From Rhodoplanes serenus (lineage in GTDB: Bacteria > Pseudomonadota > Alphaproteobacteria > Rhizobiales > Xanthobacteraceae): a stretch of DNA of 64,000 nucleotides. Location of the stretch: NCBI GenBank assembly GCA_945893145.1, contig CAMDDZ010000014.1, positions 1-64,000 on the forward strand. The letters are read 5' to 3'. The notes under the pieces were generated by a model. It did not search any database. It was not told the DNA's origin and worked only from the letters and a program-made list of their open reading frames with translations. Positions 28,184 through 31,816 of this stretch are shown in pieces (the stretch's first letter is position 1; every line of letters begins with the position of its first letter). The position numbers were made by a program, and so were the translations under genes.

Positions 28184-28384
28184 ATGGACGTCGCTTCCAT
28201 CGCAGCCGCCTTCATCGCTCAGCAGACCGCGCAATTGCAGACCGCGGTCGCCGCCAAGATGCTGCGCATGAATGCGGATCAGGCGAACAACGCCGAGCAG
28301 CTGTTGCAGGCCGCGCAGCAGAATTTCAAAAGCCTCGCCAACGTGGCGGCCGGCGTCGGCCAAAACCTCGACATCTCGGTTTGA
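28184..28384 (+). CDS. YjfB-like putative motility protein
   Basis: 66 aa MDVASIAAAFIAQQTAQLQTAVAAKMLRMNADQANNAEQLLQAA; resembles the YjfB putative motility family. Confidence 0.5.
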   Translation: MDVASIAAAFIAQQTAQLQTAVAAKMLRMNADQANNAEQLLQAAQQNFKSLANVAAGVGQNLDISV

Positions 28385-28489
28385 CGGCGAGTCGATAGAG
28401 ATTTTCGCCCGCGCCATCCCCAACCGCTGGGGACGCGGATTTTCCAGTTTACAAATCGAACGAATAAGCCCACTAGGTATACCGTCCTA

Positions 28490-28900
28490 TCCAACCGAGG
28501 GCGTCATCATGAGACGTCGTGCTGGCGGGGTGGGATGCGGCGCCTGCGGATTGGCCTCGTAAACCAATCCCCGGGAGGCCTCGGGTAACTGTCCCCCCTA
28601 CTACGAGGGGCGCCCAGCTTTGGGTGACACGGGGACCGGATGAACGGCGGCGTAAGCCGCCGGGATCAGGGCGAGCGCGAGTTCGCTGCCGGTTCTTGTC
28701 AGTCACGGTTCCGAGACGCCCAAAATCGCCGCGATGGAGCGTCGGCCGGCGCGCGCCCACGAATTTGGGCGCCACGCCGGTTAGTCCCCGGTGGAGTAAT
28801 CCATCGGCGGACGAGGCGTGATCGAGATGTGGCGTCGACCGGCGCTCCATCCCCTCGGATTTTCCGAGGACCAACAAGACGGCGCCCGGGCGCCCAACAA
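28490..28900. ncRNA. candidate structured non-coding RNA (novel or unrecognised)
   Basis: At least eight hairpins in about 350 nt, including two GUAA-capped stems and a 13-bp stem enclosing a branched region; no convincing CDS on either strand. Confidence 0.45.
28509..28562 (+). CDS. possible 17-aa leader peptide MRRRAGGVGCGACGLAS
   Basis: gagg SD-like motif about 9 nt upstream of ATG; stop overlaps hairpin GGATTGG/CCAATCC. Confidence 0.3.
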   Translation: MRRRAGGVGCGACGLAS

Positions 28901-28999
28901 ATCCCGGCGATGGCGCACGTCTGCATCACAAGAAACCACAAGGAGCAGGGAGAGCAGATGAACACACGCCGTGCCGCGCGTTCCTTCTCTCGGCTCGCG

Positions 29000-30799
29000 T
29001 CAGTCCGGTTGATAGCGCCCGCCGATCGCCACTTTGCTGACGCCGAGGCCGGGCAGCTCCCAGACGCCGGCGCCGCCGGGATTCTGGTCGGCGTTGATGT
29101 TGACGTCGATCAGGTACGGCTTGTTGGCGGCGATGGCCATGCGGATGGCGTTGCCGATGTCGCCAGCGCGATCGACGCGCACGCCCTCGACGCCGGCCGA
29201 GCGCGCCATGGCGGCGAAGTCGGGATTGTACGGCTTGTTGCTGTCGGGATAGCGGAAGTCGGTGGCGAGTTCGCGGCCGTCGAGATAGCCGCGCTGCAAA
29301 CCGCGGATCGACGCATAGGCGTAATTGTTCCAGATCACCCAGACGACCGGCAGATTGTATTCGACCGCGGTGCCGAGCACGTTGGCGTGCATGAAGAAGG
29401 CGCCGTCGCCGCACACCGAGACGCAAGGCCGGTCAGGCGCCGCGAACTTGGCGCCGAGCACGCCGGCAACGCCGAAGCCCATCGCGCCGAAACCCATGCA
29501 ACCGATGAAGCTGTCCGGCCGCTTCGGTTTGCAGAATTGCAAAAGCCAGTTGTGGTGCACGCCGATGTCGCTGACCATGATGGCGTCGTCGGGCAGCGCC
29601 TTGTCGATCTCGGCCGCGGCGCGCTGCGGATGGATCGGGGTCGAGTCGTCGGCGAAGCCCGGCGCGATGAACCTCTCCCATTCCTTGCGCATGACGTCGA
29701 TGGTTGCGAGCCATTTCCGGCGCGAGGCGGCCGCATCGGCGACGCCTTTGCGCGTGTCCAGCTCGGCCAACACCTGACGCAGGAACGTCCGCACGTCCGC
29801 CATCAGCCCGAGCGCGACCGGATAGTTGCGGCCGATCTCCTCGGGGTCGATGTCGACGTGGATCAATTTGGTCGGCGGGATGGTGAAGGAATAGCCGGGG
29901 ATCCACGACGACGAGGTGCGGTCGTCGAAACGCACGCCGATCGCGAGCAGCACATCGGCCTGCCGCGCCGCGCCATTGGCCTGAAGCGCGCCGCCGCGCG
30001 ACAGCAGGCCGAGCGACAGCGGATGGTGCGTGTCGATGGCGCCAATGCCGCTCATCGAATGCGCCACCGGGATTTGCAGCTTCTCGGCGAGCGCCCGCAG
30101 GTCGTCGGTCGCGCCGCCGTATTTCACGCCCTGGCCGACCAGGATCACCGGCCGCTCGGCCGCGAGCAGCATGTCGACGGTCTTTTTCACGCCCTCGGGA
30201 TCGGCGCCGCAGCGGCTGGAAATGTTGGCGCACCAGTCTTCGGGCCTTGGCGTTTCCTCGGCGGCGGCTTCCTTAAAGACGTCGAACGGCACGTCCAGCA
30301 CGACCGGCCCCGGACGGCCGGTCACCATGGTCTTCCAGGCCTGCCGCACCATCATCGGCACCTGCTCACCGCGGGTCGGCTGGAACACTCTCTTGCAAAT
30401 GCCGCGAACCGTGGACGGGAAGTCGGCCTGGTGCTGGCGATACAGCTCCTGGAACGCGCCGCGACCGAATTGCGTGGTCGGCACGTTGCCGGTCACGGCG
30501 AGGAACGGCACGGAATCGAGATAAGCGGTCGCGAGTGCGATCGGCATGTTCAGCGAGCCCGGCCCGCACGACGTGAACGTCGCCACCGGCTTTCCCTTCA
30601 CGCGGTAATAGGCGTCTGCCATGAAACCGCAGACGCTCTCGTGGTGCACCGAGATGGTCTTGATGTCGTCGCGGCGTTCGTAAAGCGCGTCGATGAACTG
30701 GATGTTGCCGTGGCCGCAAAGGCCGAAGGCGTAGGGCACCTTTTCCCGGATCAGGTAATCGACGATGACCTGGCCGCCATCGAGCATGTTCTTTGGCAT
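29000..30799 (-). CDS. thiamine pyrophosphate-requiring enzyme (acetolactate synthase-like)
   Basis: VPYAFGLCGHGNIQFIDAL...TSCGPGSLNMPIALATAYLDSVPFLAVTGNVPT...SVCGDGAFFMHANVLGTAVEYNLPVVWVIWNN. Confidence 0.9.
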   Translation of the reverse strand: MPKNMLDGGQVIVDYLIREKVPYAFGLCGHGNIQFIDALYERRDDIKTISVHHESVCGFMADAYYRVKGKPVATFTSCGPGSLNMPIALATAYLDSVPFLAVTGNVPTTQFGRGAFQELYRQHQADFPSTVRGICKRVFQPTRGEQVPMMVRQAWKTMVTGRPGPVVLDVPFDVFKEAAAEETPRPEDWCANISSRCGADPEGVKKTVDMLLAAERPVILVGQGVKYGGATDDLRALAEKLQIPVAHSMSGIGAIDTHHPLSLGLLSRGGALQANGAARQADVLLAIGVRFDDRTSSSWIPGYSFTIPPTKLIHVDIDPEEIGRNYPVALGLMADVRTFLRQVLAELDTRKGVADAAASRRKWLATIDVMRKEWERFIAPGFADDSTPIHPQRAAAEIDKALPDDAIMVSDIGVHHNWLLQFCKPKRPDSFIGCMGFGAMGFGVAGVLGAKFAAPDRPCVSVCGDGAFFMHANVLGTAVEYNLPVVWVIWNNYAYASIRGLQRGYLDGRELATDFRYPDSNKPYNPDFAAMARSAGVEGVRVDRAGDIGNAIRMAIAANKPYLIDVNINADQNPGGAGVWELPGLGVSKVAIGGRYQPD

Positions 30800-30832
30800 C
30801 GCCGCAGATACTCCGCTACGTTTGTGGGACGA

Positions 30833-31816
30833 TCAGCGCGTCAGGCTTTTCAGCGCGCGGTCAAAGTACGACAGATCGAGATAGCGTTCGGGCGACGGTT
30901 GCGGCCCACCCTCGATTTCGCTGCGCAGCGTCAGCATGTTCTTGAAGCCCGTCATGTCGAGCTTGGCATCGGGGTTGAAACCGAAACCGGGCGTGGCAAT
31001 CAGCTGATAGGTCCGCTCCGCGAGGTCTGGCGGCGTTTTCAGGTTCTGCACCAGCATGGTGATCGCTTCGGCCTTGTTGCGCGGATTGAGCGACCAGCGC
31101 AGCGCCTCGATATAGGCGGCGAGATAGCGTTCGAGCGTGGCGGCGTGGTCGCGCGCCCAGGCGCGCATCACGAATGCGCCGCCGGCTTGGTACGGGCCGA
31201 GCAGGTCGCTGGTGCGGCCAAGGCTGCGCAGGCCCATTTTTTGCGCTTGCAGCGAGTAGGGCAGGTTGAGCACGGCCGCGGCGTTGTCCTTGTCGTCCGC
31301 CATCGCTTGCAGCCGCATGCTGCCGCGGCCGATCGGCTTGATGGTGTAGTCGGTGCCTTCCTTCAGCCCGTGGTTGAGCAGGATTTTCTTGGCCAGCAGC
31401 GCGTAGGCGGTGTCCGGCGCATCGACCACGACGGTGTGGCCGCGCAGGTCGGCGAAGGTCTTGATGTTCTGTTGCACGTAGAATTCGTTGGTGCCGGCGT
31501 CGCCGCCCATCACGATGATGACATCCAGCTTCGCGACCTCGATCATGGCGACCGCGTTGTCGAGCGCCGAATGCACCACGTCGGCCTTGCCGGCGGCCAG
31601 GTCCAGCCGCTGCTGCTTGGAATTCTCCGTGAAGGCAAGTTCGAGCTTAATGCCATGCTTGGCGAAGATGCCCTTGGCCTGACCGGCCACGAAGGGCAGC
31701 GAGCGGGCGGTCGGGAAGGTGTTGACCCGCACTAGATCGGGGTCGGCGGCGAACGCCGGAACTCCGCACAGCACCGCAAACAGCGCGGAAATGGCGGCAA
31801 ACTGCATACGTCTCAT
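30833..31816 (-). CDS. ABC transporter substrate-binding protein (NMT1/THI5-like)
   Basis: Signal peptide MRRMQFAAISALFAVLCGVPAFAA, then PTARSLPFVAGQAKGIFAKHGIKLELAF. Confidence 0.8.
   Translation of the reverse strand: MRRMQFAAISALFAVLCGVPAFAADPDLVRVNTFPTARSLPFVAGQAKGIFAKHGIKLELAFTENSKQQRLDLAAGKADVVHSALDNAVAMIEVAKLDVIIVMGGDAGTNEFYVQQNIKTFADLRGHTVVVDAPDTAYALLAKKILLNHGLKEGTDYTIKPIGRGSMRLQAMADDKDNAAAVLNLPYSLQAQKMGLRSLGRTSDLLGPYQAGGAFVMRAWARDHAATLERYLAAYIEALRWSLNPRNKAEAITMLVQNLKTPPDLAERTYQLIATPGFGFNPDAKLDMTGFKNMLTLRSEIEGGPQPSPERYLDLSYFDRALKSLTR

Follow-up and report, generated by a model that had tools for sequence, protein, structure and literature searches.

The locus and the RNA unit

The window analysed here is a stretch of 64,000 nucleotides from Rhodoplanes serenus. 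Positions 28482-28932 of its + strand hold a unit of about 450 nt (451 nt), whose limits are set by homology among copies. Just upstream lies a 66-aa open reading frame (MDVASIAAAFIAQQTAQLQTAV..., 28184-28384, +), which appears to resemble the YjfB motility family, and the next gene downstream is convergent. A 1031-aa open frame (28640-31735, +) overlaps the unit and runs antisense to an open reading frame like that of a thiamine-diphosphate enzyme (29000-30799); it looks spurious and is an annotation risk. The features of the locus are as follows.

28448-28479, +: upstream block TTTACAAATCGAACGAATAAG...CTAGGTA, a candidate promoter kept in most aligned own-genome copies; -35 TTTACA at 28448-28453, -10 near 28473-28479, weak, spacer about 19-20
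28482-28932, +: RNA unit, beginning near the predicted start; left limit of homology at about -16 to -12 (28497 as reference) where promoters differ; 3' limit set by homology, right limit 28930-28934; folding z-score -5.9
28484-28536, +: stem P1, 28484-28492 with 28528-28536, enclosing hairpin P2; from covariation
28500-28518, +: hairpin P2, GGCGTC-[A TCATGA]-GACGTC, with a heptaloop (28506-28512) containing the 6-nt palindrome TCATGA (28507-28512); from the fold and palindrome conservation; predicted kissing loop of a homodimer
28520-28527, +: segment with an alternative pairing to the P2 5' strand (CGTCA/TGGCG), which excludes P2; possible switch
28537-28732, +: central domain closed by PA (GCGGCG 28537-28542 with CGCCGC 28727-28732), holding P3 (28548-28554 with 28564-28570) and a branched middle; from the fold
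28733-28851, +: long stem PB, 28733-28745 with 28839-28851, with inner arms 28753-28772 and 28773-28820; from covariation
28853-28869, +: hairpin PC, CCTCGGA-TTT-TCCGAGG; from the fold, found in nearly all copies
28881-28907, +: 3' pseudoknot module, hairpin 28881-28894 with loop CCGG (28886-28889) and downstream partner CCGG (28904-28907); from covariation among copies
28908-28932, +: 3' tail CGATGGCGCACGTCTGCATCACAAG, at the site where many relatives carry the rRNA-leader boxA GGCTGTTTGACA

We infer the -10 element of the window copy, and the clear TTGACT-N17-TATATT promoters of other subfamilies sit at the same distance. An earlier note, made from the sequence, had described 28490-28900 as a hairpin-dense candidate structured RNA. 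Every hairpin string it quoted lies where the note had placed it in the window. The minimum-energy fold of the single sequence returns GGATTGG/CCAATCC (28548-28554/28564-28570), CCCCT/AGGGG (28595-28599/28606-28610), CGGCGGC-GTAA-GCCGCCG (28645-28662), the 13-bp stem 28733-28745/28839-28851, GCGCCCA/TGGGCGC (28753-28759/28766-28772), CCGGTGGA-GTAA-TCCATCGG (28788-28807) and CCTCGGA/TCCGAGG (28853-28869). The GTCCCC/GGGGAC helix of the note is absent from this fold; from homologues such as L135, which has CCGUCC/GGACGG in the same place, the equivalent helix is read as TGTC 28590-28593 with GACA 28626-28629. For the 3' pseudoknot region of the window copy, the single-sequence fold draws a different pairing. 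The note had captured the hairpins, but its outline of the block missed the multicopy dispersed nature of the element, its own promoters, the palindromic loop, the 5' hairpin and P1 (28484-28536), PA (28537-28542/28727-28732) and the 3' end.

The folding signal exceeds chance and is asymmetric between strands. Its z-score is -5.3 on the + strand and -3.0 on the - strand for 28490-28900, and -5.9 versus -3.5 for 28482-28932, where none of 100 dinucleotide shuffles was as stable. GNRA loops make up 37% of the predicted tetraloops compared with 5.7% in shuffled sequences, an enrichment that fits the remark in the note on recurring GUAA tetraloops.

A multicopy family in Hyphomicrobiales

A DNA search with 28490-28900 found at least 16 places in the same genome at 92-100% identity, and weaker matches in relatives. 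Allowing up to three mismatches, the 5' core GAGGGCGTNNTCATGAGACGTC has 36 matches in this genome and 37 in the complete genome (8.2 Mb) of a relative (G004), and a reversed control pattern gives 0 matches. Because many contigs of the assembly end inside the element, the copy number in the own genome is probably above 36. The aligned copies share a common unit from about 28482 to 28932.

The wider distribution was surveyed with a covariance model of the 5' domain (R1), on which the following counts at the level of taxonomic family, order and class are based. In the family, R1 detects the RNA in 159 of 300 genomes and 31 of 47 genera, often at 13 or more copies per genome; 15 selected genomes have 1-18 copies each. 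Across the order, 17 of 398 genomes are positive, with at least five other families among them, and the order-level sample gave no R1 matches in genus g40, whose genomes are large. Across the class, the only positive among 385 genomes is the own genome and none lies outside the order, a survey that doubles as a negative control. Named records with copies carry the labels Pseudolabrys, Pseudorhodoplanes, Rhodoplanes and Xanthobacteraceae/Hyphomicrobiales, the carriers being related bacteria of soil and water. Phage and plasmid collections contain no similar DNA, and hence no phage or plasmid carrier was found.

Shorter and differently built relatives exist. Three short forms (L244, L245 and L246, in the tatC-serS intergenic region of G005, G007 and G003) are without the P1/P3 core and keep a TTGAC-type promoter, a 5' hairpin with a palindromic loop (ACCGGU), PB and the tail. 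By their sequences, these short forms point to a superfamily wider than R1 detects. Other architectures were reached through the shared 3' tail CGGGCGGCGGAGCGTTGGCT (L264, L266, L267, L273, L275, L277, L280 and L286), some with quite different middles.

Covariation and exclusion of known classes

The proposal of a structured RNA is supported by strong covariation among homologues, in P1, P3, PB and the pseudoknot. In an alignment of 53 diverse copies, 95.5% of the cells of P1, P2 and P3 are paired versus 84.5% after shuffling, and their covariation score is 0.496 versus 0.279; helices slid by 1-3 columns score at most 0.15. P1 shows changes on both sides at six of its nine pairs, with 96% of cells paired in the 53 copies, and P3 covaries at five of five. 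Compensatory changes are also seen in PA, with GCGGCG/CGCCGC in the window copy against GTGGCG/CGCCAC in G004. The base of PB appears as GGAGCG/CGCTCC, GGCGCG/CGCGCC, GGGGCG/CGCCCC, GAAGCG/CGCTTC, GGTGCG/CGCACC and GGCACG/CGTGCC, and the arms inside it differ in number and length from copy to copy. The loop and downstream strand of the 3' pseudoknot change together across copies (CCGGG/CCCGG, GGCCCC/GGGGCC, CCCG/CGGG, CCCC/GGGG and TCCGC/GCGGA).

The P2 region has a second pairing. Its 5' strand can pair further downstream in a helix that is mutually exclusive with P2, 92.9% paired and covarying, and alignment positions 30-31 covary with 41-42. With this helix in place of P2, the set is 93.5% paired overall and scores 0.586. 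Since the alternative is also well supported, the P2 region may switch.

A conserved coding frame, which had been named as one of the findings that would speak against an RNA, is not seen. The start codon in the P2 loop is lost where TCATGA becomes TCTAGA, TCCGGA or TCGCGA (ATG giving way to CTAG, CCGG or GCGC), indels of all lengths occur and the arms vary freely in length, so a protein-coding gene was rejected. A small peptide starting at the loop ATG (MRRR..GVGCGACGLAS*) was likewise rejected, because that ATG is lost in many relatives.

Rfam covariance models gave no match above the gathering threshold in the window or in 19 loci with other copies or forms, and only chance-level matches at a relaxed threshold. 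This cmscan search ruled out identity with group I/II introns, ribozymes, ROOL/GOLLD/OLE and 6S RNA, and gave no match to HEARO, RNase P or tmRNA; the suggestion of a structured RNA other than RNase P, tmRNA, SRP, 6S or a group I/II intron is thereby supported. REP-type repeats, which are under about 50 bp and have no promoter of their own, were rejected for a 451-nt unit with a promoter at a fixed distance.

A palindromic loop and a predicted homodimer

P2 consists of a short stem and a seven-base loop made up of one base and a six-base palindrome, A-UCAUGA in the window. Nine hexamers occupy this loop across copies: UCAUGA, UCUAGA, UCCGGA, UCGCGA, CUCGAG, ACCGGU, CGAUCG, CUUAAG and CUAUAG. 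The hexamer is self-complementary in 108 of 125 distinct 5' segments (some short-form segments being picked by eye and their hairpins assigned by script), compared with a mean of 10.8 and a maximum of 22 in 2000 shufflings of the loops. Counting distinct loops only, 19 of 33 are self-complementary versus 2.3 expected (shuffle maximum 9). The exceptions include the non-palindromic TCCCGA (L172) and TCCTGG (L211) and a few loops that are palindromic only with G-U pairs. The palindrome is also kept in loci retrieved by their 3' tail, a sampling independent of the loop, and in the tatC-serS short forms. For the two commonest types, the loop hexamer recurs elsewhere in the RNA in 0 of 44 and 0 of 40 cases, which makes an intramolecular partner unlikely.

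Change from one palindrome to another in the same loop is taken as evidence for symmetric intermolecular kissing loops, as in the L9.3 bridge of OLE and the L21a bridge of GOLLD (PMC12286853). Because the swaps observed here preserve the palindrome and match this criterion, we infer homodimerisation, and by analogy the RNA is predicted to form homodimers through the P2 loop. Several loop classes can coexist in one genome (UCUAGA, UCCGGA and UCAUGA in G004), and such classes would be separate self-recognition groups. Sequence analysis found no protein partner or target of the RNA.

Exchangeable promoters and boxA tails

Most copies carry a promoter-like block at a fixed place, with a -35 near -48 and a -10 near -25 relative to GAGGGCG, the latter about 11 before P1. 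From the position of the -10, the start is predicted at about -13, the first base of P1. The block occurs in several classes: TTGACT-N17-TATATT, a block with the LexA box GTTCN7GTTC, TTTGCATTCTCGCAAATCACGAGTAGACG, ACTTATCCCCG...TTATCTT, and, in the own genome, TTTACAAATCGAACGAATAAG, which is weak as a promoter. The ACTTATCCCCG...TTATCTT class recurs upstream of many copies in G001, G003, G009 and G010. Another class has the palindrome TATTCCTATAGGAATA between -35 and -10.

GTTCN7GTTC is the alphaproteobacterial LexA motif (PMC8565304). It overlaps the promoter, in exact form and at -33 to -35, in 12 of 36 copies of G004 and not in the window copy, against a background of 3 in 193 kb of flanks. 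Some copies are predicted from this motif to be under LexA/SOS control.

From -14 onwards, copies are near-identical even where their promoters differ (L101 and L104, 98.6% over 426 bases). Left and right homology limits differ between subfamilies, and the right limits also fall into classes. The copies are thus modular, with promoter, core and tail as the modules. In many copies, the tail ends with a hairpin and, after it, boxA, GGCTGTTTGACA. An exact CTGTTTGA[AC]A lies within +330 to +620 in 35 of 141 copies, with none on the opposite strand and none in an equal length upstream; the own-genome copies in this 141-copy scan have no boxA. The same GGCTGTTTGACA precedes the 16S gene by about 240 bases in G004 and in an operon of G147, and G207 has a variant differing by one base.

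Genomic context and site history

Of 36 copies in G004, 23 have an upstream gene on their own strand, often with its stop about 90 bases ahead of the core; only 12 of the 36 have a co-oriented downstream gene, which argues against a leader. The genes next to the copies are unrelated to one another, and many look like housekeeping genes by sequence; together with the strand counts, this does not fit a cis-regulatory leader or riboswitch.

Between tatC and serS, G001 has a long copy, and G003, G005 and G007 have short forms with a similar promoter, PB stem and tail; several other genomes, G000 and G004 included, have a short gap without the element, these empty sites giving no exact junctions. 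Such presence and absence between species indicates that copies are gained, lost or exchanged at sites, for which mobility and gene conversion are both possible routes. Relatives do not have the two flanking genes of the window locus side by side. By eye, no terminal inverted repeats or target-site duplications typical of DNA transposons or MITEs were seen in the aligned copies, and homology limits differ between subfamilies.

A few sites have a history of their own. In L002, L045 and L052 (G009, G008 and G002), the RNA is followed by one and the same SDR dehydrogenase gene, and the copy looks orthologous across species. In L142 and L144 (also L006), from two or three genomes, the RNA is soon followed by the start of a small cysteine-rich protein (e.g. 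LWCACPVKRCRRAKTCIG), which may be linked to it or be there by chance. A link of the RNA to one neighbour gene was rejected: the SDR gene, tatC-serS and the cysteine-rich protein (L142/L144) represent site conservation and are not family-wide. In low-copy genomes, copies at L207, L209 and L192 are divergent to genes for what we take to be a RelE/HigB-type toxin, an OLD-like AAA ATPase and a vWA protein, presumably marking genomic islands. In G001, a repeat like Br-REP2 adjoins the element and is separate from it (L239, read against the published consensus).

Interpretation and alternative explanations

Based on these observations, the hairpin block of the window is probably one of many dispersed, stand-alone genes for a structured RNA, each with its own promoter; the product is predicted to form homo-oligomers. 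Each gene would give, from its own promoter, an RNA of about 300-500 nt starting at P1. This RNA would fold into the 5' kissing hairpin P2, a central branched domain closed by PA, PB with variable arms, the 3' pseudoknot and an optional boxA. Two RNAs of the same loop type would pair through the self-complementary hexamer of P2 to give a homodimer or larger homo-oligomer. Within a genome the core may be homogenised by gene conversion or copying, and, as promoters are exchangeable, copies would be regulated differently. Comparison of sequences establishes the family, its limits and helices, the conserved palindrome, the promoter classes with their fixed position and the boxA tails; transcription, dimerisation, action at the RNA level and the route by which copies spread are predictions from it. 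Three observations weigh against this reading: the helix competing with P2 covaries better per pair, so that the palindrome could serve a switch instead; a few loops are non-palindromic or depend on G-U pairs; and the window copy has a weak promoter match and no boxA.

A fuller reading, which we put forward as a tentative but real possibility, is an undescribed homodimerising RNA family of dozens of dispersed genes in Hyphomicrobiales, with loop-defined self-recognition classes, partly SOS-induced and linked through boxA to rRNA antitermination, that would either act in trans, as an assembly made of RNA only, or be a selfish RNA replicon relying on homotypic RNA recognition. Natural self-assembling RNAs (OLE, ROOL and GOLLD) have been recognised only recently and their roles are open. 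Here, many loop swaps keep self-complementarity in chromosomal multicopy genes, and the order has cultured species, making dimerisation, SOS induction and function testable by mutation. A common class of long GC-rich intergenic repeats would then be a structured RNA gene family, and a likely cause of assembly breaks and spurious ORF calls. We rank an RNA-level homo-oligomer, whether its function is host-related or selfish, first, followed by an element that is selfish only, a monomeric switch and, last, a leader.

It is somewhat doubtful that the element is a non-autonomous selfish mobile element without host function, comparable to the mobile/repeat candidates of Breaker and colleagues, its fold serving copying or recognition by a transposase or reverse transcriptase from elsewhere. 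The high copy number, near-identical copies at different places, patchy distribution, tatC-serS presence and absence between species and the many contig ends inside the element are what such an element would leave. However, inspection of the aligned copies by eye gave neither target-site duplications nor fixed terminal repeats; among the flanking genes, none was noticed that encodes a transposase or reverse transcriptase; and some sites are common to several species. The RNA core also stays constant while promoter and tail classes change, and the fine-scale conservation of helices and palindrome points to RNA function.

A monomeric RNA that switches between P2 and the alternative helix, with the palindrome serving this intramolecular switch, is in our view unlikely. 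The strong pairing and covariation of that helix, and of positions 30-31 with 41-42, are consistent with a switch, but a switch does not require a self-complementary loop hexamer, and hairpins of short forms such as L245 and L246 keep palindromic ACCGGU loops on a different stem.

An improbable reading is a cis-acting leader, in which the RNA forms the 5' end of longer transcripts and boxA promotes polymerase read-through into the next gene. The own promoter, a 3' boxA identical to that of rRNA leaders, and a purine-rich stretch and ATG after some own-genome copies would suit it; the scarcity of same-strand downstream genes in G004 (12 of 36), the convergent next gene in the window, the lack of a recurrent downstream gene family and the absence of boxA from most copies argue against it.

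Although 6-nt palindromes resemble restriction or operator sites, a DNA-level role of the palindrome (protein operator, restriction or methylation site) with incidental RNA structure is highly improbable, as no single protein could have nine unrelated hexamers as its site, the palindrome lies in the loop of a covarying RNA hairpin and the folding signal is stronger on the sense strand.

Comparison with known systems

No description of this RNA family was found in the literature searched, subscription papers and preprints lying outside its scope. The nearest published repeats are Br-REP1 and Br-REP2 of Bradyrhizobium and Rhodopseudomonas, which are short palindromes (PMC5082802). Like these and the REP/BIME, ERIC and BOX repeats, the element has many intergenic copies, is palindromic and modular, and often lies just downstream of genes (PMC5082802). 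In contrast, REPs are single palindromes of roughly 20-40 nt (PMC5082802), whereas the unit here is about 450 nt with its own promoter and a covarying multi-branch fold. It also resembles the mobile/repeat candidates and large high-ranking RNAs of a GC-IGR screen, long covarying intergenic motifs such as the Thioalkalivibrio smtA motif of over 350 nt, of which the multicopy class is considered selfish (PMC11109978). The smtA motif lies upstream of one gene family and the repeat example of that screen is a single long stem, neither being reported with palindrome-switching loops or promoter exchange in the parts consulted (PMC11109978).

The tail resembles the boxB-boxA arrangement of rRNA operon leaders, with a hairpin followed by GGCTGTTTGACA as in the 16S leaders of three genomes of the taxonomic family. 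Unlike in those leaders, the RNA family is not linked to rRNA, and boxA lies at the 3' end of a structured unit and is missing in many copies.

OLE, ROOL and GOLLD are large ornate bacterial RNAs that form homo-oligomers, the function of ROOL and GOLLD being unknown (PMC12286853). Two properties of this kind of RNA, as distinct from these families, are found here: extensive covarying structure and palindrome-preserving changes of a predicted kissing loop. Like OLE, ROOL and GOLLD (PMC12286853), the present RNA is large and multi-helical, contains a pseudoknot and GNRA loops, and has loop palindromes that change as whole units, the oligomer being predicted here from sequence. ROOL and GOLLD occur mostly in phages and prophages near tRNA islands (PMC12286853), unlike the present family, which is shorter, has many copies dispersed over the chromosomes of Hyphomicrobiales, exchanges its promoters and has no Rfam match. 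As a kind of RNA, its closest relatives are the large ornate homo-oligomeric RNAs, although it does not belong to any of those families and differs from them in copy number, genomic habit and promoter exchange.
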